From the NCBI RefSeq assembly GCF_900624995.1, contig NZ_UYXQ01000001.1:62001-126000 (forward strand): DNA of 64,000 nt, written 5' to 3'. The notes beneath the pieces are model-generated. The model was not told where the DNA came from. It ran no database searches and saw nothing but the letters and a program-made list of their open reading frames with translations. The translations under genes and the position numbers were made by a program. The DNA is from Pseudomonas antarctica (GTDB taxonomy: Bacteria > Pseudomonadota > Gammaproteobacteria > Pseudomonadales > Pseudomonadaceae). Position 1 is the stretch's first letter, and the number at the start of each line of letters is the position of its first letter. Below, piece after piece: positions 4,298 through 52,645 of the stretch.

Positions 4298-5800
4298 ATG
4301 CCGCAATCCCAAGCCAAGAATCTGTCCCTGATCGCCGCCATCGACCTGGGCTCCAACAGCTTTCACATGGTCGTGGCCAAGGCCCAGAACGGCGAAATCC
4401 GCATCCTCGAGCGGCTCGGCGAAAAAGTGCAACTGGCTGCCGGAATCGACGACGAGCGTCAGCTCAATGAAGAGTCCATGCAGCGCGGGCTCGATTGCCT
4501 CAAGCGCTTTGCCCAACTGATCAATGGCATGCCCTTGGGCGCAGTGCGAATCGTGGGCACTAACGCCTTGCGTGAAGCGCGTAACCGCGGCGAGTTCATC
4601 CGGCGCGCCGAGGAGATTCTCGGGCACCCGGTAGAAGTCATCTCCGGCCGTGAAGAAGCGCGCCTGATCTACCTCGGCGTGTCCCACACCCTGGCCGACA
4701 CGCCCGGTAAACGCCTGGTAGCGGACATCGGCGGCGGCAGTACCGAATTTATCATCGGCCAGCGTTTTGAACCGCTGCTGCGCGAAAGCCTGCAGATGGG
4801 TTGCGTCAGTTACACCCAGCGGTATTTCAAGGACGGCAAGATCACCCCGGCACGCTACGCCCAGGCCTACACAGCGGCGCGCCTGGAAATCATGAGCATC
4901 GAACACGCCCTGCACCGTTTGACTTGGGATGAAGCCATTGGCTCCTCTGGCACCATACGTGCCATCGGCCTGGCCCTGAAAGCCGGCGGCCATGGCACCG
5001 GCGAGGTCAACGCCGAAGGCTTGGCGTGGCTCAAGCGCAAGCTGTTCAAGCTGGGCGATGCGGAGAAAATCGATTTCGACGGCATCAAGCCCGACCGCCG
5101 CACCATTTTCCCGGCCGGCCTGGCGATTCTCGAAGCAATCTTCGACGCCCTCGAACTGCAACGTATGGACCACTGTGACGGCGCCCTGCGCGAAGGCGTG
5201 CTCTACGACCTGCTGGGCCGTCATCACCACGAAGACGTGCGTGAGCGCACCCTCAGCTCGTTGATGGAGCGTTATCACGTCGACTTGGAACAAGCCGCCC
5301 GCGTGGAACGTAAAGCCCTGCATGCCTTCGACCAGGTAGCCGAAGACTGGGACCTGGAGGACGGCGTATGGCGCGAGCTGCTCGGCTGGGCCGCTAAGGT
5401 GCACGAGGTGGGCCTGGACATCGCCCACTATCATTACCACAAGCATGGCGCCTACCTGATCGAGCACTCGGACCTTGCCGGCTTCTCCCGCGAAGACCAA
5501 CAGATGCTCGCCCTGCTGGTGCGCGGCCATCGCCGCAACATCCCCAAGGACAAGTTTGCCGACTTCGGCGGCGAAGGCATCAAGCTGATTCGCCTGTGCG
5601 TACTGCTGCGCTTTGCGATCCTGTTCCACCACATCCGTGGGACCCAGGAAATGCCCCAGGTGACCCTGCGCGCCCATGGCGACAGCCTGGACGTGGTGTT
5701 CCCGAAAGGCTGGCTGGATGAAAACCAGCTGACCCAGGCGGACTTCGCCCAGGAAGCGGAGTGGCTGACGCGGGTTGGGTTCAGTCTGAACCTGCGCTAA
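4298..5800 (+). CDS. ppx: Exopolyphosphatase
   Basis: 500 aa Ppx/GppA phosphatase. It removes terminal phosphate from long-chain polyphosphate (and possibly pppGpp). The ASKHA-fold nucleotide/phosphate loops are visible: [13 protein letters not shown] at the N-terminus and [13 protein letters not shown] about residue 140. The C-terminal half carries the HD-like helical region ([26 protein letters not shown]). Length fits the bacterial Ppx family. The frame is open upstream to a TTG at 4196, but ATG 4298 ([12 protein letters not shown]) begins just ahead of the conserved domain and is the family start. It converges on ppk, the opposing synthetic enzyme, with a two-armed REP element between them. 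Confidence 0.95.
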
Positions 5801-5815
5801 AGCACACTACAAAAC

Positions 5816-5911
5816 AAATGTGGGAGGGGGCTTGCTCCCGATAGCGGAGTGTCAGTTGACCTATTCATCAACGGACCCACTGCAATCGGGAGCAAGCCCC
5901 CTCCCACATTT
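5816..5911. repeat. Paired inverted REP element (REPIN), GGGGGCTTGCTCCCGAT class
   Basis: Two 27-bp perfectly inverted arms, 5816-5842 beginning AAATGTGGGAGGGGGCTTGC and 5885-5911, separated by about 42 bp. The whole can fold into a long hairpin. It lies between the convergent ppx and ppk stop codons and probably also ends both transcripts. Same architecture but different core sequence from the elements at 17912, 32171 and 57323. Confidence 0.9.
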
Positions 5912-5928
5912 TTTGACCGTGTCGGGCT

Positions 5929-8151
5929 TTAGTTCACCGCCAGAATCGGGCTACCCAGCTTCTCCAGCAAGGTGGCCTGCGCACTGCGCGGGTTCTGGTT
6001 GCCGGTCGGTGTGTTACGCACGTAACGGCCGTCCGACTGCAGGCTCCAGCTGTGGGTGTTGTCGGTCAAGTAGCTTTCCAGCTCTTTCTTGACGCGCATG
6101 ATCAGCTTCTTGCCTTCCACCGGGAAGCATGTTTCCACACGTTTATCGAGGTTACGCTCCATCCAGTCGGCACTGGAGAGGAACATCTGTTCCTCGCCGC
6201 CGTTGAGGAAGTAGAACACCCGCGTGTGTTCCAGGAAGCGGCCGATGATCGAGCGAACATGGATGTTATGCGAGACCCCGACAATGCCTGGGCGCAGGCA
6301 GCACATGCCGCGCACCACCAGGTCGATGCGCACACCGGACTGGCTGGCCTTGTACAGCGCGCGGATGATCTTCGGATCGGTCAGCGAGTTGAACTTGGCG
6401 ATGATGTGCGCCGGTTTGCCGTCAAGAGCGAACTGGGTTTCGCGGGCAATCATGTCGAGCATGCCCTTCTTGAGCGTGAACGGCGCGTGCAGCAACTTCT
6501 TCATGCGCAAGGTCTTGCCCATGCCGATCAACTGGCTGAACAACTTGCCGACGTCTTCACACAAGGCGTCGTCGGAGGTCAGCAGGCTGTAGTCGGTGTA
6601 GAGCTTGGCGTTACCGGCGTGGTAGTTACCAGTGCCCAAGTGCGCGTAACGCACGATCTCACCGGCTTCGCGGCGCAGGATCAGCATCATCTTGGCGTGG
6701 GTCTTGAAACCAACCACACCATAGATCACCACCGCACCGGCTGCTTGCAGACGGCTGGCTAATTGCAGGTTGGACTCTTCGTCGAACCGCGCACGCAACT
6801 CGATCACTGCGGTGACTTCCTTGCCGTTACGCGCGGCATCTACCAATGCGTCGACGATTTCGGAGTTGGCGCCGGAGCGGTACAGCGTCTGGCGCACGGC
6901 CAATACATGCGGGTCCTTGGCAGCCTGGCGCAGCAGGTCGACCACCGGCGTGAAAGACTCGAAGGGGTGCAGCAGCAGAATGTCCTGCTTGCTCACCACG
7001 CTGAAAATGTTCTCGCTGTTTTGCAGCAACTTCGGGATCTGCGGCGTGAACGGCGTGTATTGCAGTTCCGGATGACTGTCCAGGCCGGTGATGCTGAACA
7101 GGCGCGTCAGGTTGACCGGCCCATTGACCTGGTACAACTCGGACTCGGCCAGGTTGAACTGCTTGAGCAGGTAGTCCGACAGGTGTTTAGGGCAGGTATC
7201 GGCCACTTCCAGGCGCACCGCGTCACCGTAGCGCCGCGAAAACAGCTCACCGCGCAGCGCGCGGGCCAAGTCTTCGACGTCTTCAGAGTCCAGCGCCAAG
7301 TCGGCGTTACGGGTCAGGCGGAACTGGTAGCAGCCTTTTACCTTCATGCCTTGGAACAGGTCATCGGCATGCGCATGGATCATCGACGACAGGAATACAT
7401 AGTTGTCGCCAGCGCCACCCACCTCTTCCGGTACCTTGATGATCCGTGGCAACAGACGCGGCGCCGGGATGATCGCCAGGCCCGAATCGCGACCAAAGGC
7501 GTCGATGCCTTCCAGCTCGACGATGAAGTTCAGACTCTTATTCACCAGCAACGGGAACGGGTGCGTCGGGTCGAGACCGATCGGGGTGATGATCGGTGAA
7601 ATCTCGTCACGGAAGTAACGGCGCACCCAGGTCTTGATCTTGGTGGTCCAGTGGCGACGACGGATGAAGCGGACCTGATGTTTTTCCAGTTCCGGCAGCA
7701 GGATGTCGTTGAGAATTGCGTATTGGCGGTCCACATGGCCGTGCACCAGTTCGCTGATGCGCGCCAGGGCCTGATGCGGCTGTAGGCCGTCGGCGCCGGC
7801 TTGTTCGCGGGCGAAGGTAATTTGCTTCTTGAGGCCGGCGACGCGAATCTCGAAGAACTCGTCCAGGTTGCTGGAGAAAATCAGCAGGAATTTCAGCCGT
7901 TCCAACAGCGGGTAGGACTCATCCAGCGCCTGCTCCAGCACACGGATGTTGAATTGCAGTTGTGACAGCTCGCGGTGGATGTACAGGCTGCTGTCATCCA
8001 GGTTGGTCACCGCGACCACCGGGGCCGGTGCGGGCGCCTCGGCCACTACAACAGGCGGTGCGGGCTCCAGCTCCGGCGGGGTCTCGGTGACTTTTTCCAC
8101 CACCGGGTGAGCGTCTTTTACGGCAACTTCTAAGAGTCCTTCGGTATTCAT
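5929..8151 (-). CDS. ppk: Polyphosphate kinase 1
   Basis: 740 aa PPK1, which reversibly makes polyphosphate from ATP. After a Pro/Ala/Val-rich N-terminal extension of about 50 residues comes the PPK N-domain ([19 protein letters not shown]), and the two catalytic-domain histidine motifs are present: [10 protein letters not shown] (the phosphorylated histidine region, H435 in E. coli) and [11 protein letters not shown] (H592 region). The conserved [18 protein letters not shown] segment is intact. It is 18 nt downstream of hemB on the same strand and probably cotranscribed. AGGAAC precedes ATG 8151. The proline-rich extension is longer than in the E. coli enzyme; its function is not known to me. 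Confidence 0.96.
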
Positions 8152-8169
8152 CGAGTGTTCCTGTGAGGG

Positions 8170-9204
<1,035 letters not shown>

Positions 9205-9238
9205 TTACGGGCGAGCGTTGCAGTTATAAGCGGCCATT

Positions 9239-48070: not shown

Positions 48071-48649
48071 CTAAGCGCGCAAATCCAGCAACAGCCTCGC
48101 CACTTCCATCACCTCATCCAGCACCGCTTCTGCCGACTCGGTGGAGGGATTCAGCATCAAGTCATCGGCATAACCCATCGCCATCGCGAAGATCTGCCGG
48201 GCAGCGCGCCGGGGCGAATCACAACGAAACACGCCTGCGATGACACCCTGTTCGATCACCTCGGCGAGCATGCCTTGCCATTGGGCGTTGATCACCAGAT
48301 ACGCCTGGGCCATTTGCGGGTCGTGCATCGCCTCGTCCCAGGCATCCAGCCACAACGCCCAACCGGCGTCGGCGGTGCACGGCAGGCAGTCGCGCAGAAA
48401 ACCCACCAATGCTTCAAGCGGCGGCACGCCCACCAGTGGCGCGCGCACTTCGTCCAACTGTTCGTTGGCGAAACGCACGAAGGCTTCGCGGCGCAGTTCA
48501 TTCCAGTCGCTGAAGTAGTGGTAGACGTGGCTACGCGACAGGCCGGCATGTTCGGCCAGGTCGCGGGTGGACACATCGGCAAACCCCTTGCTGCGAAACA
48601 GCTCCAAGGCAGCGGCGATGATCTGGTCTTTACGGTCGATACGCGACAT
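48071..48649 (-). CDS. TetR family transcriptional regulator
   Basis: 192 aa from ATG 48649, with GAAGGAA upstream; the frame stays open back through the operators but this is the last start before the DNA-binding domain. N-terminal helix-turn-helix: DQIIAAALELFRSKGFADVSTRDLAEHAGLSRSHVYHYF by context, with recognition helix GLSRSHVYHYF. The C-terminal ligand domain is unassigned. Divergent from an ABC-type membrane protein gene; two palindromes in the intergenic region are its likely operators and would repress both promoters. Confidence 0.92.
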   Translation of the reverse strand: MSRIDRKDQIIAAALELFRSKGFADVSTRDLAEHAGLSRSHVYHYFSDWNELRREAFVRFANEQLDEVRAPLVGVPPLEALVGFLRDCLPCTADAGWALWLDAWDEAMHDPQMAQAYLVINAQWQGMLAEVIEQGVIAGVFRCDSPRRAARQIFAMAMGYADDLMLNPSTESAEAVLDEVMEVARLLLDLRA

Positions 48650-48692
48650 GAGCAGTTCCTTCGGGCGCCGGTAGATAAACGGCGCTTGCATT

Positions 48693-48708
48693 TTGAGCGA
48701 TCGCTCAA
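48693..48708. promoter_or_regulatory. TetR operator O1 (perfect 16-bp palindrome)
   Basis: TTGAGCGATCGCTCAA, identical to its reverse complement, 44 bp upstream of the tetR start. Typical size and symmetry of a TetR-family operator. Confidence 0.8.
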
Positions 48709-48714
48709 GGATAC

Positions 48715-48730
48715 TTGAGCAGTCGCTCAA
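48715..48730. promoter_or_regulatory. TetR operator O2 (near-perfect 16-bp palindrome)
   Basis: TTGAGCAGTCGCTCAA. It shares both outer hexamers with O1, and its centre is exactly 22 bp from the centre of O1, two helical turns, so two dimers would sit on the same DNA face. 32 bp upstream of the divergent membrane-protein gene. Confidence 0.78.
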
Positions 48731-48762: not shown

Positions 48763-49677
48763 ATGTCATCCGTCACCCCACACATTCTGATCGAAGAAAG
48801 CAAGAAAATCGGCCAACAGTCCGCCAGCCAAACGTTGAAAGCCATCGCTCGGGCTTATCCCGGCAAGCTGTTCTGCACCTTGTCGCTGGTTGCGCTGGAG
48901 AATGCGCTGCTGCTGGCGTACCCGCTGTTTGCCGGGTTCGCGGTGGATTCAATTATCCGTGGCGATGCCGGCAGTGCGTTGTTCTACGCCGCCGTCGTCT
49001 TGGCGTTCTGGGTCGTCGGCGCGGCGCGTCGTGCGTTGGACACGCGCACCTTCACGCGGATCTACGCCGACCTCGCGGTGCCGGTGATCCTCAACCAGCG
49101 CCTGCAAAACCACAGCACCTCACGGGCTGCGGCGCGGGTGGTGTTGGCGCGGGACTTTGTCGACTTCTTCGAAAAACACGTGCCGATCATCGCCACGGCG
49201 TTGGTGTCGATCGTCGGCGCGGCGGTAATGTTGTTGGTGATCGAACCGTGGATCGGCCTGGCATGCCTGAGCGCCTTGCTGTTGTGCACCACGTTGCTGC
49301 CACGCTTTGCACGGCGCAATCAGGCGTTGCATGAACGCTTGAATGACCGCCTGGAGAAGGAGATCGGCCTGGTAGAAAAGGTCGGTGCACAGACCTTGCA
49401 GCGTCACTATCAGGTGCTGTCGCGCTTGCGCATCTGGCTGTCAGATCGCGAGGCCGCCGCGTTCCTGTTTATCGGTACGCTGGCAGCCTTACTGTTTGTG
49501 GTCGCGATCAGCCAGTTGGCGTTGTCGCCGGCGGTCAAGGCCGGGCACGTGTACGCGGTGATGACCTACCTGTGGACCTTCGTCAGCAGCCTGGACGAAG
49601 CGCCAGGCATGGTCGATCAACTGGCGCGGCTCAAGGACATTGGCAAGCGCGTGGATCCTGGCCTGGGCGAGCGCTAG
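48763..49677 (+). CDS. ABC transporter six-TM domain protein without ATPase domain
   Basis: 304 aa from ATG 48763. The sequence is almost all membrane helix (LVALENALLLAYPLFAGFAVDSI; LFYAAVVLAFWVV; ATALVSIVGAAVMLLVI; ACLSALLLCTTLL; FLFIGTLAALLFVVAI) and corresponds to the transmembrane region of exporter-type ABC proteins; I believe Pfam treats such stand-alone forms as a separate ABC_membrane family. No Walker A, signature or Walker B is present, and no ATPase gene is adjacent. It is expressed divergently from the TetR gene. Substrate unknown. Confidence 0.82.
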   Translation: MSSVTPHILIEESKKIGQQSASQTLKAIARAYPGKLFCTLSLVALENALLLAYPLFAGFAVDSIIRGDAGSALFYAAVVLAFWVVGAARRALDTRTFTRIYADLAVPVILNQRLQNHSTSRAAARVVLARDFVDFFEKHVPIIATALVSIVGAAVMLLVIEPWIGLACLSALLLCTTLLPRFARRNQALHERLNDRLEKEIGLVEKVGAQTLQRHYQVLSRLRIWLSDREAAAFLFIGTLAALLFVVAISQLALSPAVKAGHVYAVMTYLWTFVSSLDEAPGMVDQLARLKDIGKRVDPGLGER

Positions 49678-49755: not shown

Positions 49756-51003
49756 TCACGTTCCTTGCTTGACCGTCGCCACCGCTTCGGAAACCGGCGT
49801 AACCTGCACGCTGCGACGTGGCAAGCGGCCATTGAGCAGTGCGTACGCGGCCAATCCGATCAGCAATCCCCAAAACGCCCCACCGATCCCCAGTAGGGTG
49901 ATATTTGCGGCGCACGCCAGAAAGGTGATCAGCGAGGCCTCTCGGGATGCGACGTCAGCCATAGCGTTGGCGAGGCTGGCGCCAATGGTGCCAAGCAGGG
50001 CCAACCCGGCCAGTGTGGTAATGAACGCCGCCGGGAGCGCCATGAATACGGCGGCCAGCGTCACCCCGAAAACCCCGACGAGTATGTAGAACACGCCTGC
50101 GGCAACCCCCGCGACCCAACGCTTGTGCGGATCCTGCGAAGCTTCCTTGCCCGTGCAAATGGCGGCGGTGATCGCTGCGACGTTGAACGCGTGAGAGCCG
50201 AACGGTGCCATTAACAACGAGCCCAGCCCGGTAACCGTCAAGATAGGGTTGGCGCTGGTCTTAAAACCATCGTTACGCAATACCAGCATACCCGGCATGT
50301 ACTGGCCCGTGAGGGTGATCAGAAACAGCGGGAGCGCCACACTAAGCAGCGCATTGAGCGAGAACTGCGGCGCGGTGAATACCGGCGCGGCCAACTGCAA
50401 GGACAGGCTCGACAGATCCACGCGCCCCTGCAGCAGCAGAAATGCCAGCCCCAGCGCCAAAATGCCAACGACGGCGTAGCGGGCAGTAAACCGCTTGAGT
50501 ACCCCATAAGCGGCAATCAACAACCCGACCAAGACAGGGTCCAGGCTCATGCCACCAAACGCGCCGATGCCGAACTGCAGCAGAATGCCCGCCAGCATGG
50601 CCGCAGCAATGCCCGGCGGAACCAGCCGGATGACTTTTTCAAAGAAACCGGACAGCCCCAGCAGTACAAACGCAGCGGCTGAAATCATGTAAGCGCCGAC
50701 CGCCTCGGCGTAGGGCGTGGCAGAGAGCGCGACCACCAGAAACGCTGCGGCGGGGGTCGACCACGCGGTGATAATCGGTTCACGGCTCAGCCAACTGAGA
50801 AACAGCCCGGTCACGCCAACGCCGATTGAAATCGACCAAACCCACGAGGCTGTCAGTTCCGGACTGAGCCCGGCCACCTTGGCAGCCTGAAACACCAGAA
50901 TAAACGTGCCGCCATAATTGACGATGACTGAAATCAGCCCCGCAATCACGGGAGGAAAAAGGTCGCGCAGGCGTAGCGACGACGGCGATACCAGAGAAGG
51001 CAT
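49756..51003 (-). CDS. BenE-type benzoate/H+ symporter
   Basis: 415 aa with about twelve hydrophobic segments. Family pattern: VIAGLISVIVNYGGTFILVFQAAK, SREPIITAWSTPAAAFLV, LVPPGIAAAMLAGILLQFG and PFGSHAFNVAAITAAICTG. BenE proteins import benzoate with protons; no benzoate catabolic genes lie nearby, so the natural substrate may differ. Divergent from a MocR regulator, the likely controller. Confidence 0.85.
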   Translation of the reverse strand: MPSLVSPSSLRLRDLFPPVIAGLISVIVNYGGTFILVFQAAKVAGLSPELTASWVWSISIGVGVTGLFLSWLSREPIITAWSTPAAAFLVVALSATPYAEAVGAYMISAAAFVLLGLSGFFEKVIRLVPPGIAAAMLAGILLQFGIGAFGGMSLDPVLVGLLIAAYGVLKRFTARYAVVGILALGLAFLLLQGRVDLSSLSLQLAAPVFTAPQFSLNALLSVALPLFLITLTGQYMPGMLVLRNDGFKTSANPILTVTGLGSLLMAPFGSHAFNVAAITAAICTGKEASQDPHKRWVAGVAAGVFYILVGVFGVTLAAVFMALPAAFITTLAGLALLGTIGASLANAMADVASREASLITFLACAANITLLGIGGAFWGLLIGLAAYALLNGRLPRRSVQVTPVSEAVATVKQGT

Positions 51004-51145
51004 GGGTGTGTTGCTCCTTGCAATAAGAGGGATTGAGCCTCGCGTGATGGGTCAGTTACCGGGGAAAAGCCTGAGACACAGGTCCAAGCCTACGGCTAGA
51101 CTGGCCTGCCGCTATAGACCAATTCATCCAAATAGGGCAGACCGC

Positions 51146-52645
51146 ATGGCAAAAACCTTCGAGCTGGAAACGCTGCAGATGCGGCTTAACGAGGATGAGT
51201 TTCAGCTTCTGGATCTGCACCAACGCATTCAGCGCGCACTGCGTGCGCTTATCCTCGAGGGAGTGCTTGCGCCCGGCCTGAAGCTCCCCGCGACGCGGGT
51301 ACTGGCCAAGTCATTGGGAATGGCCCGCGATACGGTGGAGAACGCCTACGTGCAGTTACACCGCGATGGTTTTATCGTACGGCGCGAGGGCTCCGGCAGT
51401 TATGTGTGCGATGCCATCGGCGCCCAATTGCGCGGCGCCTCCCGCCGACGCATCAAGGCGCAGGAAGTCAAAAGCAGCCAGGCGATAAGCGGCGCCGGCT
51501 TGAGCCAGCGGGGGCGGATGATCCTCGACAGCGGTGGCGTGTGCGACCAACAGGTCATCAAAGCATTCGCCACTGGCCTGCCCGAAACCCGCTCCTTCCC
51601 GACCGGTGTCTGGGAGCGCCTGCAACGCCAAGTGATGAAAGACTATCGCAGCAGCGTGCTGTTGCACGGCGACCCGCAAGGGGCCGAGCCGTTACGCAAC
51701 GCCATCGCCACCTACTTGAACCTCGAACGTGGGGCCAAGTGCTCTCCCAATCAGGTGGTGGTGCTGAGCAGTACTCGCCAAGCCCTGTTTCTGTGCGCGC
51801 AGTTGCTGGTGGACGTCGGCAAACCGATCCTGCTGGAGAACCCAGGTTACTTTGGCGCCAGGAAAGCCTTTGAAACCGCCGATACCAAGGTGGTGCCCAT
51901 CGATGTCGATGGTCAGGGCATACGTACCGACTTGCTGCACGCCGACCGCAGTGGCGCCAATTGCGTGTATGTCACGCCCTCTCATCAATACCCGACCGGC
52001 GCCACCTTAACGCTGGAGCGACGTTTTGAATTGATCAACTGGGCCGCGGAAAAAGGCAAATGGATCATCGAGGATGACTACGACAGCGAGTTTCACTACG
52101 ACGGCAAACCCACTGCCTGCGTGCAGGGCCTGGACAAGTATCAGCGCACGCTTTACATCGGCACGTTCAGCAAGACCCTCTACCCCGGCCTGCGCATGGG
52201 CTACATGGTGCTGCCCCATGAACTGGCCAAAGCCTTCACCTACGCCCGCAGCATGATGGACGGCCACACGCCGCAAATCCTGCAACTGACACTGGCGCGC
52301 TTTATGGAGGACGGTCACTACAACGCCCATGTTCGCGCGATGCGCAAACTCTATGCCGGGCGCCAAGCCATCATGCTCGACGCCATCGGCAAGCACTTGG
52401 GCGATGTCGTCACGGCCTCTCGGCCCCAGGGAGGGCTGCAAATTCCCTGCCTGTTGCACGAGGGTTGGTCGGAAGAAAACACCATCCGCCAGGCCGCCAG
52501 CGCAGGCGTGCAACTGCCCGGTCTCAGCCGGTTGTATGCCGGCGACGAAAAGAAACAGGGCTGGCTATTGGGCTACTCGTCCTTGAACGCACATGAAATC
52601 GAAACCGCCATGCTGCGCCTGGCGAACGCGCTCAAAACCCGCTAG
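51146..52645 (+). CDS. MocR/PdxR-type GntR regulator with aminotransferase domain
   Basis: 499 aa. GntR winged helix at residues about 20-90 (LHQRIQRALRALILEGVLAPGLKLPATRVLAKSLGMARDTV by context), then a fold-type I aminotransferase domain: YVTPSHQYPTGATL, EDDYDSEFHY, and the PLP lysine in GTFSKTLYPGLRMGYMV. Such regulators sense vitamin B6, GABA or other amino compounds through PLP chemistry. The frame is open upstream into benE, but ATG 51146 is the first start outside the intergenic promoter region. It faces the BenE-type gene across 142 bp. Confidence 0.9.
   Translation: MAKTFELETLQMRLNEDEFQLLDLHQRIQRALRALILEGVLAPGLKLPATRVLAKSLGMARDTVENAYVQLHRDGFIVRREGSGSYVCDAIGAQLRGASRRRIKAQEVKSSQAISGAGLSQRGRMILDSGGVCDQQVIKAFATGLPETRSFPTGVWERLQRQVMKDYRSSVLLHGDPQGAEPLRNAIATYLNLERGAKCSPNQVVVLSSTRQALFLCAQLLVDVGKPILLENPGYFGARKAFETADTKVVPIDVDGQGIRTDLLHADRSGANCVYVTPSHQYPTGATLTLERRFELINWAAEKGKWIIEDDYDSEFHYDGKPTACVQGLDKYQRTLYIGTFSKTLYPGLRMGYMVLPHELAKAFTYARSMMDGHTPQILQLTLARFMEDGHYNAHVRAMRKLYAGRQAIMLDAIGKHLGDVVTASRPQGGLQIPCLLHEGWSEENTIRQAASAGVQLPGLSRLYAGDEKKQGWLLGYSSLNAHEIETAMLRLANALKTR

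Follow-up and report, generated by a model that had tools for sequence, protein, structure and literature searches.

Analysis of a 64,000-nucleotide stretch of Pseudomonas antarctica DNA (hereafter called the window) leads us, on balance, to the view that a TetR-type regulator and a divergently transcribed membrane gene form a one-gene ligand-inducible system, in which an inner-membrane exporter without an ATPase of its own, probably driven by ions, is kept repressed. In the mechanism that we propose, the TetR/BetI-type protein would bind two palindromes in the gap between the genes until a small molecule releases it and the membrane gene is transcribed. The membrane protein, a member of family PF13748 and presumably a homodimer, would then most likely carry a toxic substance or a metabolite out of the cytoplasm or the inner leaflet into the periplasm, with an ion gradient, felt by invariant membrane carboxylates, as the source of energy, and in some lineages the substrate may be handed on to tripartite pumps of the RND or MacAB type. 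We consider it quite likely that the membrane protein transports an inducing compound. The regulation is of an ordinary kind; it is the membrane family that is the interesting part.

The two operators are 16-bp palindromic sites situated between the TetR gene and the membrane gene. Operator 1 (positions 48693–48708) is the perfect palindrome TTGAGCGATCGCTCAA and operator 2 (48715–48730) reads TTGAGCAGTCGCTCAA; their centres are 22 bp apart, and the coordinates and sequences given in the preliminary description of this region were confirmed. The pattern TTGAGCNNTCGCTCAA, with up to two mismatches, is matched five times in the window when both strands are counted, as against 0.66 expected matches, and none of 100 shuffled windows reached five. 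In the 6.2-Mb genome the exact motif TTGAGC-N4-GCTCAA occurs at five places, two of them in this gap, versus one place for a control consisting of the pattern read backwards. When two mismatches are allowed, the forward strand of the genome is not clearly enriched (36 matches vs. 35 for the control), and the reverse strand gives 49 vs. 26. Chance palindromes are ruled out by the window shuffles, the exact genome count and the conservation at the loci of relatives described below. A search of the openly licensed literature did not find the operator sequence, its one match being an unrelated short string. The three other TTGAGC-N4-GCTCAA sites of the genome lie away from this gap.

The preliminary description had suggested a search of other Pseudomonas genomes for the palindromes, and in a sample of 149 genomes, 14 of which carry a PF13748 gene above the cut-off, both palindromes at 22-bp spacing were found in 11 of the 14. 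A TetR orthologue (E ≤ 1e-30) is encoded by exactly these 11 genomes possessing both gene and operators and by none of the other 138; the remaining three loci have neither the palindromes nor an upstream TetR gene. A wider set was obtained by scanning one genome per species, which yielded 431 encoded relatives, of which the best 80 were kept, so that these are the closest relatives rather than a random draw. Among these best 80 of 431, a divergent TetR homologue (>100 bits) stands beside the membrane gene at 54 loci, and 53 of the 54 contain exactly two TTGAGC-N4-GCTCAA sites in the gap, while the 26 loci without an adjacent TetR gene, one of which (L119) has only 185 bases upstream, do not carry the sites in any case. 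TetR regulation is therefore not universal in the family. Elsewhere in the 1.27 Mb of the loci of the 80 relatives the motif does not occur. Absence of the palindromes from orthologous loci had been named in advance as the outcome that would count against the operators; what we observe is their conservation at 53 of 54 TetR-bearing relatives. The lone exception is a metagenome-assembled genome of a Caballeronia symbiont (L109), in which the frames of tetR and of the PF13748 gene appear disrupted and the palindromes are missing, a picture that fits decay in a symbiont. The arrangement of regulator, operators and membrane gene thus occurs in many related bacteria from several proteobacterial groups.

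Some further observations concern the Pseudomonas loci. In L014–L016, L086–L088 and similar loci the gene is about 85–89% identical and lies at other genomic sites, with no TetR gene and no palindromes. In the window, positions 49756–52645, between the membrane gene and a chemoreceptor gene, contain benE and a gene judged by eye to be GntR/MocR-like; in most of the TetR-linked Pseudomonas loci checked, by contrast, the chemoreceptor gene comes immediately after the membrane gene or no more than about 1.1 kb beyond it.

The exact 22-bp phasing proposed in the preliminary description holds in the window and has to be abandoned as a general rule. Indeed, among the 53 TetR-linked loci the spacing is 22 bp in 28, 23 bp in 11, 24 bp in one and 25 bp in two, and the remaining loci have 31 bp (one), 33 bp (two), 34 bp (four), 35 bp (three) or 36 bp (one); operator 2 is found at 31–36 bp in most enterobacterial loci. 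Since no locus falls at 26–30 bp, a rough helical phasing may hold. The corresponding Rayleigh R of 0.75 at 10.5 bp was obtained from 21 hand-picked, non-independent groups and carries little weight.

On the + strand, a tentative −35 hexamer TTGCAT (48686–48691) and a tentative −10 hexamer GATACT (48710–48715), separated by an 18-bp spacer, enclose operator 1, and operator 2 is located directly 3' of the −10. The −35 hexamer is weak and occupies the same position relative to operator 1 as in other loci; at the position of the −10 hexamer, Caballeronia and Gellertiella have TATAAT. A generic promoter scan of this stretch of the window found no promoter. In a scan limited to placements around operator 1, which by construction fixes operator 1 in the spacer, the −10 lies one base past operator 1 in 52 of 53 loci. 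The fairer test, a scan of the surrounding + strand with the placement left free, ranked the placement with operator 1 as the spacer as the single best in 24 of the 53 loci, tied best in 25 and beaten in four. With the geometry fixed, 17 representatives score 8.5 of 12 vs. 3.8 (sd 1.5) in base-shuffled flanks, where none of 20,000 resampled means reached 8.5. For enterobacteria (TTGACT-17-TACAAT/TAGACT) as well as for Caballeronia and Gellertiella (TATAAT) the predicted promoter at operator 1 is strong, and that of the window's own Pseudomonas group is weak, scoring 7 of 12 and being mostly tied with or beaten by other placements. The predicted position of operator 1 between −35 and −10 is accordingly clear in most other genera and weak in the window. 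Given the results of this free scan, blocking of the polymerase by a repressor seated on operator 1 is well grounded for the group, and for the window we infer it; with operator 1 between the two hexamers and operator 2 just downstream, RNA polymerase would be excluded until the ligand releases the repressor.

The regulator gene (48071–48649, − strand, 192 residues) is divergent from the membrane gene, and its product combines a TetR_N domain with a BetI-type TetR_C_6 domain. Pfam identifies the helix-turn-helix domain PF00440 (E 1.5e-14, 53.9 bits, cut-off 24) and the C-terminal ligand-binding domain PF13977 (E 8.4e-16, 58.6 bits, cut-off 27), and the best match in the PDB is the TetR protein 5vl9 (1.2e-12). 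The segment of the recognition helix is close to LSRSHxYHYF in the 19 representatives compared. By its domains and the co-inherited palindromes the protein is a TetR/BetI-type repressor, for which operator binding and ligand release may be expected; identity with the choline-responsive BetI proper was rejected, the score being 46.0 bits vs. an NCBIfam equivalog cut-off of 201.3. Repressors of the TetR, QacR and AcrR types act on palindromic operators at divergent pump genes. The locus resembles these systems in its divergent layout, in the palindromes near the promoter and in the combination of a helix-turn-helix with a ligand domain, and differs from them in its target, which is here a PF13748 protein. 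From the sequence evidence it is very likely that the TetR protein controls the membrane gene through both sites, and autoregulation of tetR is likely.

The membrane gene (48763–49677, + strand) encodes 304 residues corresponding to PF13748 (ABC_membrane_3), a six-helix transmembrane domain (TMD) of the ABC-exporter type with no nucleotide-binding domain (NBD). The match covers the full profile (1–237 of 237; E 1.4e-77, 260.8 bits, cut-off 27), and Pfam detected no ATP-binding domain in the protein. Among the three neighbours tested, namely the TetR protein, a YifB-type AAA protein and BenE, there is no ABC ATPase, and no frame with both a Walker A motif and an ABC signature was detected in 16.7 kb around the membrane gene. 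Pfam and the 16.7-kb scan thus agree with the preliminary description, according to which the gene encodes the six-helix ABC domain only, with no ATPase in or beside it; an ATP-binding cassette, in the protein or in a dedicated neighbour, by which an ABC transporter is recognized, is lacking at the window locus. The same description had named truncation of the gene in this strain alone as an outcome that would count against it. No Walker A motif was found in the frame of the PF13748 gene in 127 locus records, some of them overlapping, a count which left out matches below the Pfam cut-off and one marginal case (G705, 27.0 bits in an open frame of 596 residues). A strain-specific truncation is therefore rejected, the protein being a full-length representative of a family whose examined members have no ATPase.

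Alternatively, the membrane protein may be an ordinary ABC half-transporter working with an ATPase encoded elsewhere in the genome. Split genes of this kind are known, an YddA-type TMD having its NBD in another operon (PMC13316013), and one genome (L155) has an ABC ATPase two genes away from its PF13748 gene, with a permease of the FtsX/MacB type also near; moreover, E198 and R125 of the window protein align with E208 and R127 of MsbA. We nevertheless hold a borrowed ATPase to be rather unlikely, as the 127 locus records contain no fused ATPase and an ABC-ATPase-like frame occurs in the examined flanks of only three of the 54 TetR-linked loci when searched by motif, or four when searched by similarity to MacB (L085, L140, L144 and L145), to which the features of the cytoplasmic loops described below have to be added. 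That the membrane protein uses no ATPase is, in our judgement, probable. The non-ATPase mechanism raised in the preliminary description has gained in likelihood and keeps the status of a proposal.

Canonical ABC exporters dock their ATPase by coupling helices at the TM2/TM3 and TM4/TM5 loops. An AlphaFold2 model of the window protein, built from 48 sequences (mean pLDDT 82.6), has helices at residues 33–65, 69–114, 121–160, 162–206, 209–254 and 260–296, with a loop at 115–120 (TM2/TM3) and a tight turn at 207–208 (TM4/TM5); neither place has a helix in the model, so that coupling helices may be missing, which would speak against a borrowed ATPase. Multi-sequence profile alignments to canonical exporters likewise leave 8–9 residues unmatched in the first cytoplasmic loop (VSFFDKQS in MsbA) and about 19 around the second, and the alignment to BmrA has smaller gaps of 6 and about 11, the placement of the gaps differing between profile alignments. 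On the basis of the model and the alignments we propose that the PF13748 family may have shortened the cytoplasmic loops on which an ATPase would dock.

The relationship to canonical exporters is evident at the level of profiles. Comparison by hhalign with the TMDs of seven full-length ABC exporters gave Prob 98 (E 2.8e-13, 272 columns), and addition of MsbA to these seven gave Prob 98 (E 1.2e-14, 282 columns); the comparison with MsbA alone is weak (Prob 46). The family profile searched against PDB sequences recovered BmrA and its relatives, with BmrA as the best match (E 1.6e-4), and PHROGs returned one distant 'ABC transporter' family (2e-10). With the model as query, Foldseek gave no match at E ≤ 0.001, the best being BmrA (E 6.7e-3), and VIA-align aligned 281 residues with P-glycoprotein (Z 19.2, rmsd 3.4), followed by SUR1 (Z 19.1); SbmA is absent among the matches listed in the structure comparisons. 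A P-glycoprotein-like prediction for ABC_membrane3, for which no experimental structure is reported, is mentioned in PMC9408558, and the family is listed in PMC4649718. PF13748 thus resembles MsbA and BmrA in its full-length profile match and differs from them in the gaps at the docking loops and in an invariant charge set of its own.

An established ATPase-free transporter with an ABC-exporter fold is SbmA, which imports peptides in a proton-driven manner; according to PMC13316013, SbmA derives from a YddA-like ancestor, and the loss of the coupling helices and the glutamate ladder are stressed. PF13748 shares with SbmA/BacA (the SLiPT family) a TMD of the exporter type without ATPase; coupling helices are absent from SbmA (PMC13316013) and may be so from PF13748. 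An importer of this sort, with the TetR protein sensing the imported compound, is nevertheless very unlikely. In hhalign two SbmA sequences gave Prob 0.27, and SbmA plus nine YddA-type TMDs 0.6 (both being shallow templates), vs. 98 for canonical exporters; Pfam, which reported PF13748 alone at E up to 0.001, gave no match to SbmA_BacA (PF05992). Moreover, the operon partners in distant PF13748 members are exporters, and these members are associated with efflux genes rather than with peptide uptake. From the match to the exporter profile and the low scores against SbmA, PF13748 appears to descend from canonical exporters by an ATPase loss of its own. We tentatively advance the possibility that with PF13748 nature has arrived a second time, independently of SbmA/BacA, at such a protein: the TMD of a canonical ABC drug exporter would have shed its ATPase and turned into an exporter driven by a gradient, controlled by ligand-sensing repressors from at least two families (TetR and MarR) and situated in some lineages at RND or MacAB efflux loci.

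Residues that could serve such a gradient-driven exporter are found among those identical in all 48 aligned sequences, namely E46 (TM1), R89 and D93 (TM2), R125 and E137 (TM3), N194 and E198 (TM4), H215 and E230 (TM5) and R296 (end of TM6). The family thus has the invariant acids E46, D93, E137, E198 and E230, and SbmA has its glutamate ladder. Judging from the helix numbering in the model, E46, R89, D93, E137 and E230 would lie at similar depth on the cytoplasmic side. After removal of the NBD, MsbA still moves ethidium when a proton gradient supplies the driving force, and the triple mutant D41N/E149Q/D252N, affecting TM1, TM3 and TM5, is described as transport-inactive (PMC4979069). Invariant acids of PF13748 are likewise present in TM1, TM3 and TM5. 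Of the three coupling carboxylates of MsbA, D252 alone aligns with an invariant acid (E230), and this in the multi-sequence alignment only, as E230 is no longer aligned to D252 when MsbA is compared alone; E46 and E137 are 4 and 9 residues off the other two. In consisting of the TMD alone PF13748 resembles NBD-deleted MsbA and LmrA, with the difference that the ATPase was removed artificially there and is naturally absent here.

The genomic company of the more distant family members again involves ligand-type regulators and efflux genes. At L041, L042 and L048 the PF13748 relative has a MarR gene as its neighbour, and at L059 the neighbour is a different TetR gene. In L048, whose membrane protein is 48% identical to that of the window, the MarR protein matches PDB entry 3g3z over its full length (9.5e-90), and the layout is the same as that of NMB1585/NMB1586 of Neisseria meningitidis. 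NMB1585 binds its own upstream region, and expression of NMB1586 is said, with reference to unpublished data, to rise in an NMB1585 knockout (PMC2650471); from the layout, NMB1586 is a probable PF13748 protein. In both this pair and that of the window, a ligand-type regulator neighbours a membrane protein of the ABC type; the Neisseria genes are co-directional and the regulator belongs to the MarR family, whereas the window has a divergent TetR gene. The missing ATPase is not remarked on in the accessible text of PMC2650471. The statement in the preliminary description that no function had been described for the pairing stands for TetR/PF13748 and needs a footnote, since a pair of the MarR/PF13748 type, with family membership judged from layout, was described in 2009 (PMC2650471). 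In the openly licensed literature we found no function for PF13748 or its pairing with TetR, and no experiment on the transport activity, binding or inducer of any PF13748 protein.

In one genus of family f189 (L148–L151), all four loci contain overlapping genes for PF13748, an HlyD adaptor, an AcrB-type RND pump and an AraC regulator, with the PF13748 gene heading the operon. In Stenotrophomonas, a MacB-type frame is located near the PF13748 gene in 12 of 13 loci; the upstream flank of the remaining one (L119) is very short. At the S. maltophilia D457 locus (L123, 2023–8918), the PF13748 gene comes after a two-component pair next to genes of the MacA/MacB type; Pfam, applied to this Stenotrophomonas locus only, identified MacB, HlyD and a histidine kinase, and the response regulator was recognized by eye. 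MacRS/MacABCsm has been described in a similar layout (PMC10295115), and by this likeness the L123 genes may be the same ones. The substitution R287Q in SMD_2317 of S. maltophilia, one of many changes that arose during antibiotic evolution (PMC11047544) and taken to come from a tobramycin-evolved population, falls in the L123 PF13748 gene; it corresponds by eye to R289 of the window protein, which is not invariant, and is weak evidence.

Such company also suits a non-transporting accessory, sensor or scaffold of the efflux machinery or the membrane, with the exporter fold re-used for regulation, and here the position at the head of the RND operon, the vicinity of MacAB-type genes in Stenotrophomonas and the tie in Z between P-glycoprotein and SUR1, a channel-regulating ABC protein, all point the same way. 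The TetR-linked group, on the other hand, has its own repressor, and no HlyD- or RND-like frame was seen in the examined flanks of its 54 loci, so that the efflux-gene company belongs to distant members only; furthermore, the invariant charges would lie close to the cytoplasmic ends of the helices, where a moving gate would have them. An accessory role is for these reasons unlikely. As an exporter, the protein would represent an overlooked efflux family; one published table carries the annotation 'ABC transporter six-transmembrane domain-containing protein' (PMC11047544). The case bears on whether the ABC-exporter fold can work in the absence of ATP, a claim made for truncated MsbA and LmrA, and whether it does so more than once in nature. 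With proteins of only about 300 residues that stand alone and have a repressor of their own, the family lends itself readily to such a test, and the operator pair, which tracks its repressor, offers a ready reporter for finding the inducer.

Several single loci show other arrangements. In Mesocricetibacter intestinalis (L136, 7138–7950), a divergent MerR-like regulator, assigned by eye and with an interrupted frame, faces the PF13748 gene, and its C-terminal part has no Pfam match. The distant PF13748 gene of L155 (G416, 4575–9216) lies amid genes for a MacB/FtsX-type permease, a beta-lactamase-family protein and an ABC ATPase. In a metagenome-assembled Massilia genome (L113), an RND-like frame and a histidine kinase are found near a PF13748 gene without TetR. 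In genome G515 (L045/L047), PF13748 is matched by two stretches that are close together but separate, which suggests that the gene may be broken or split.
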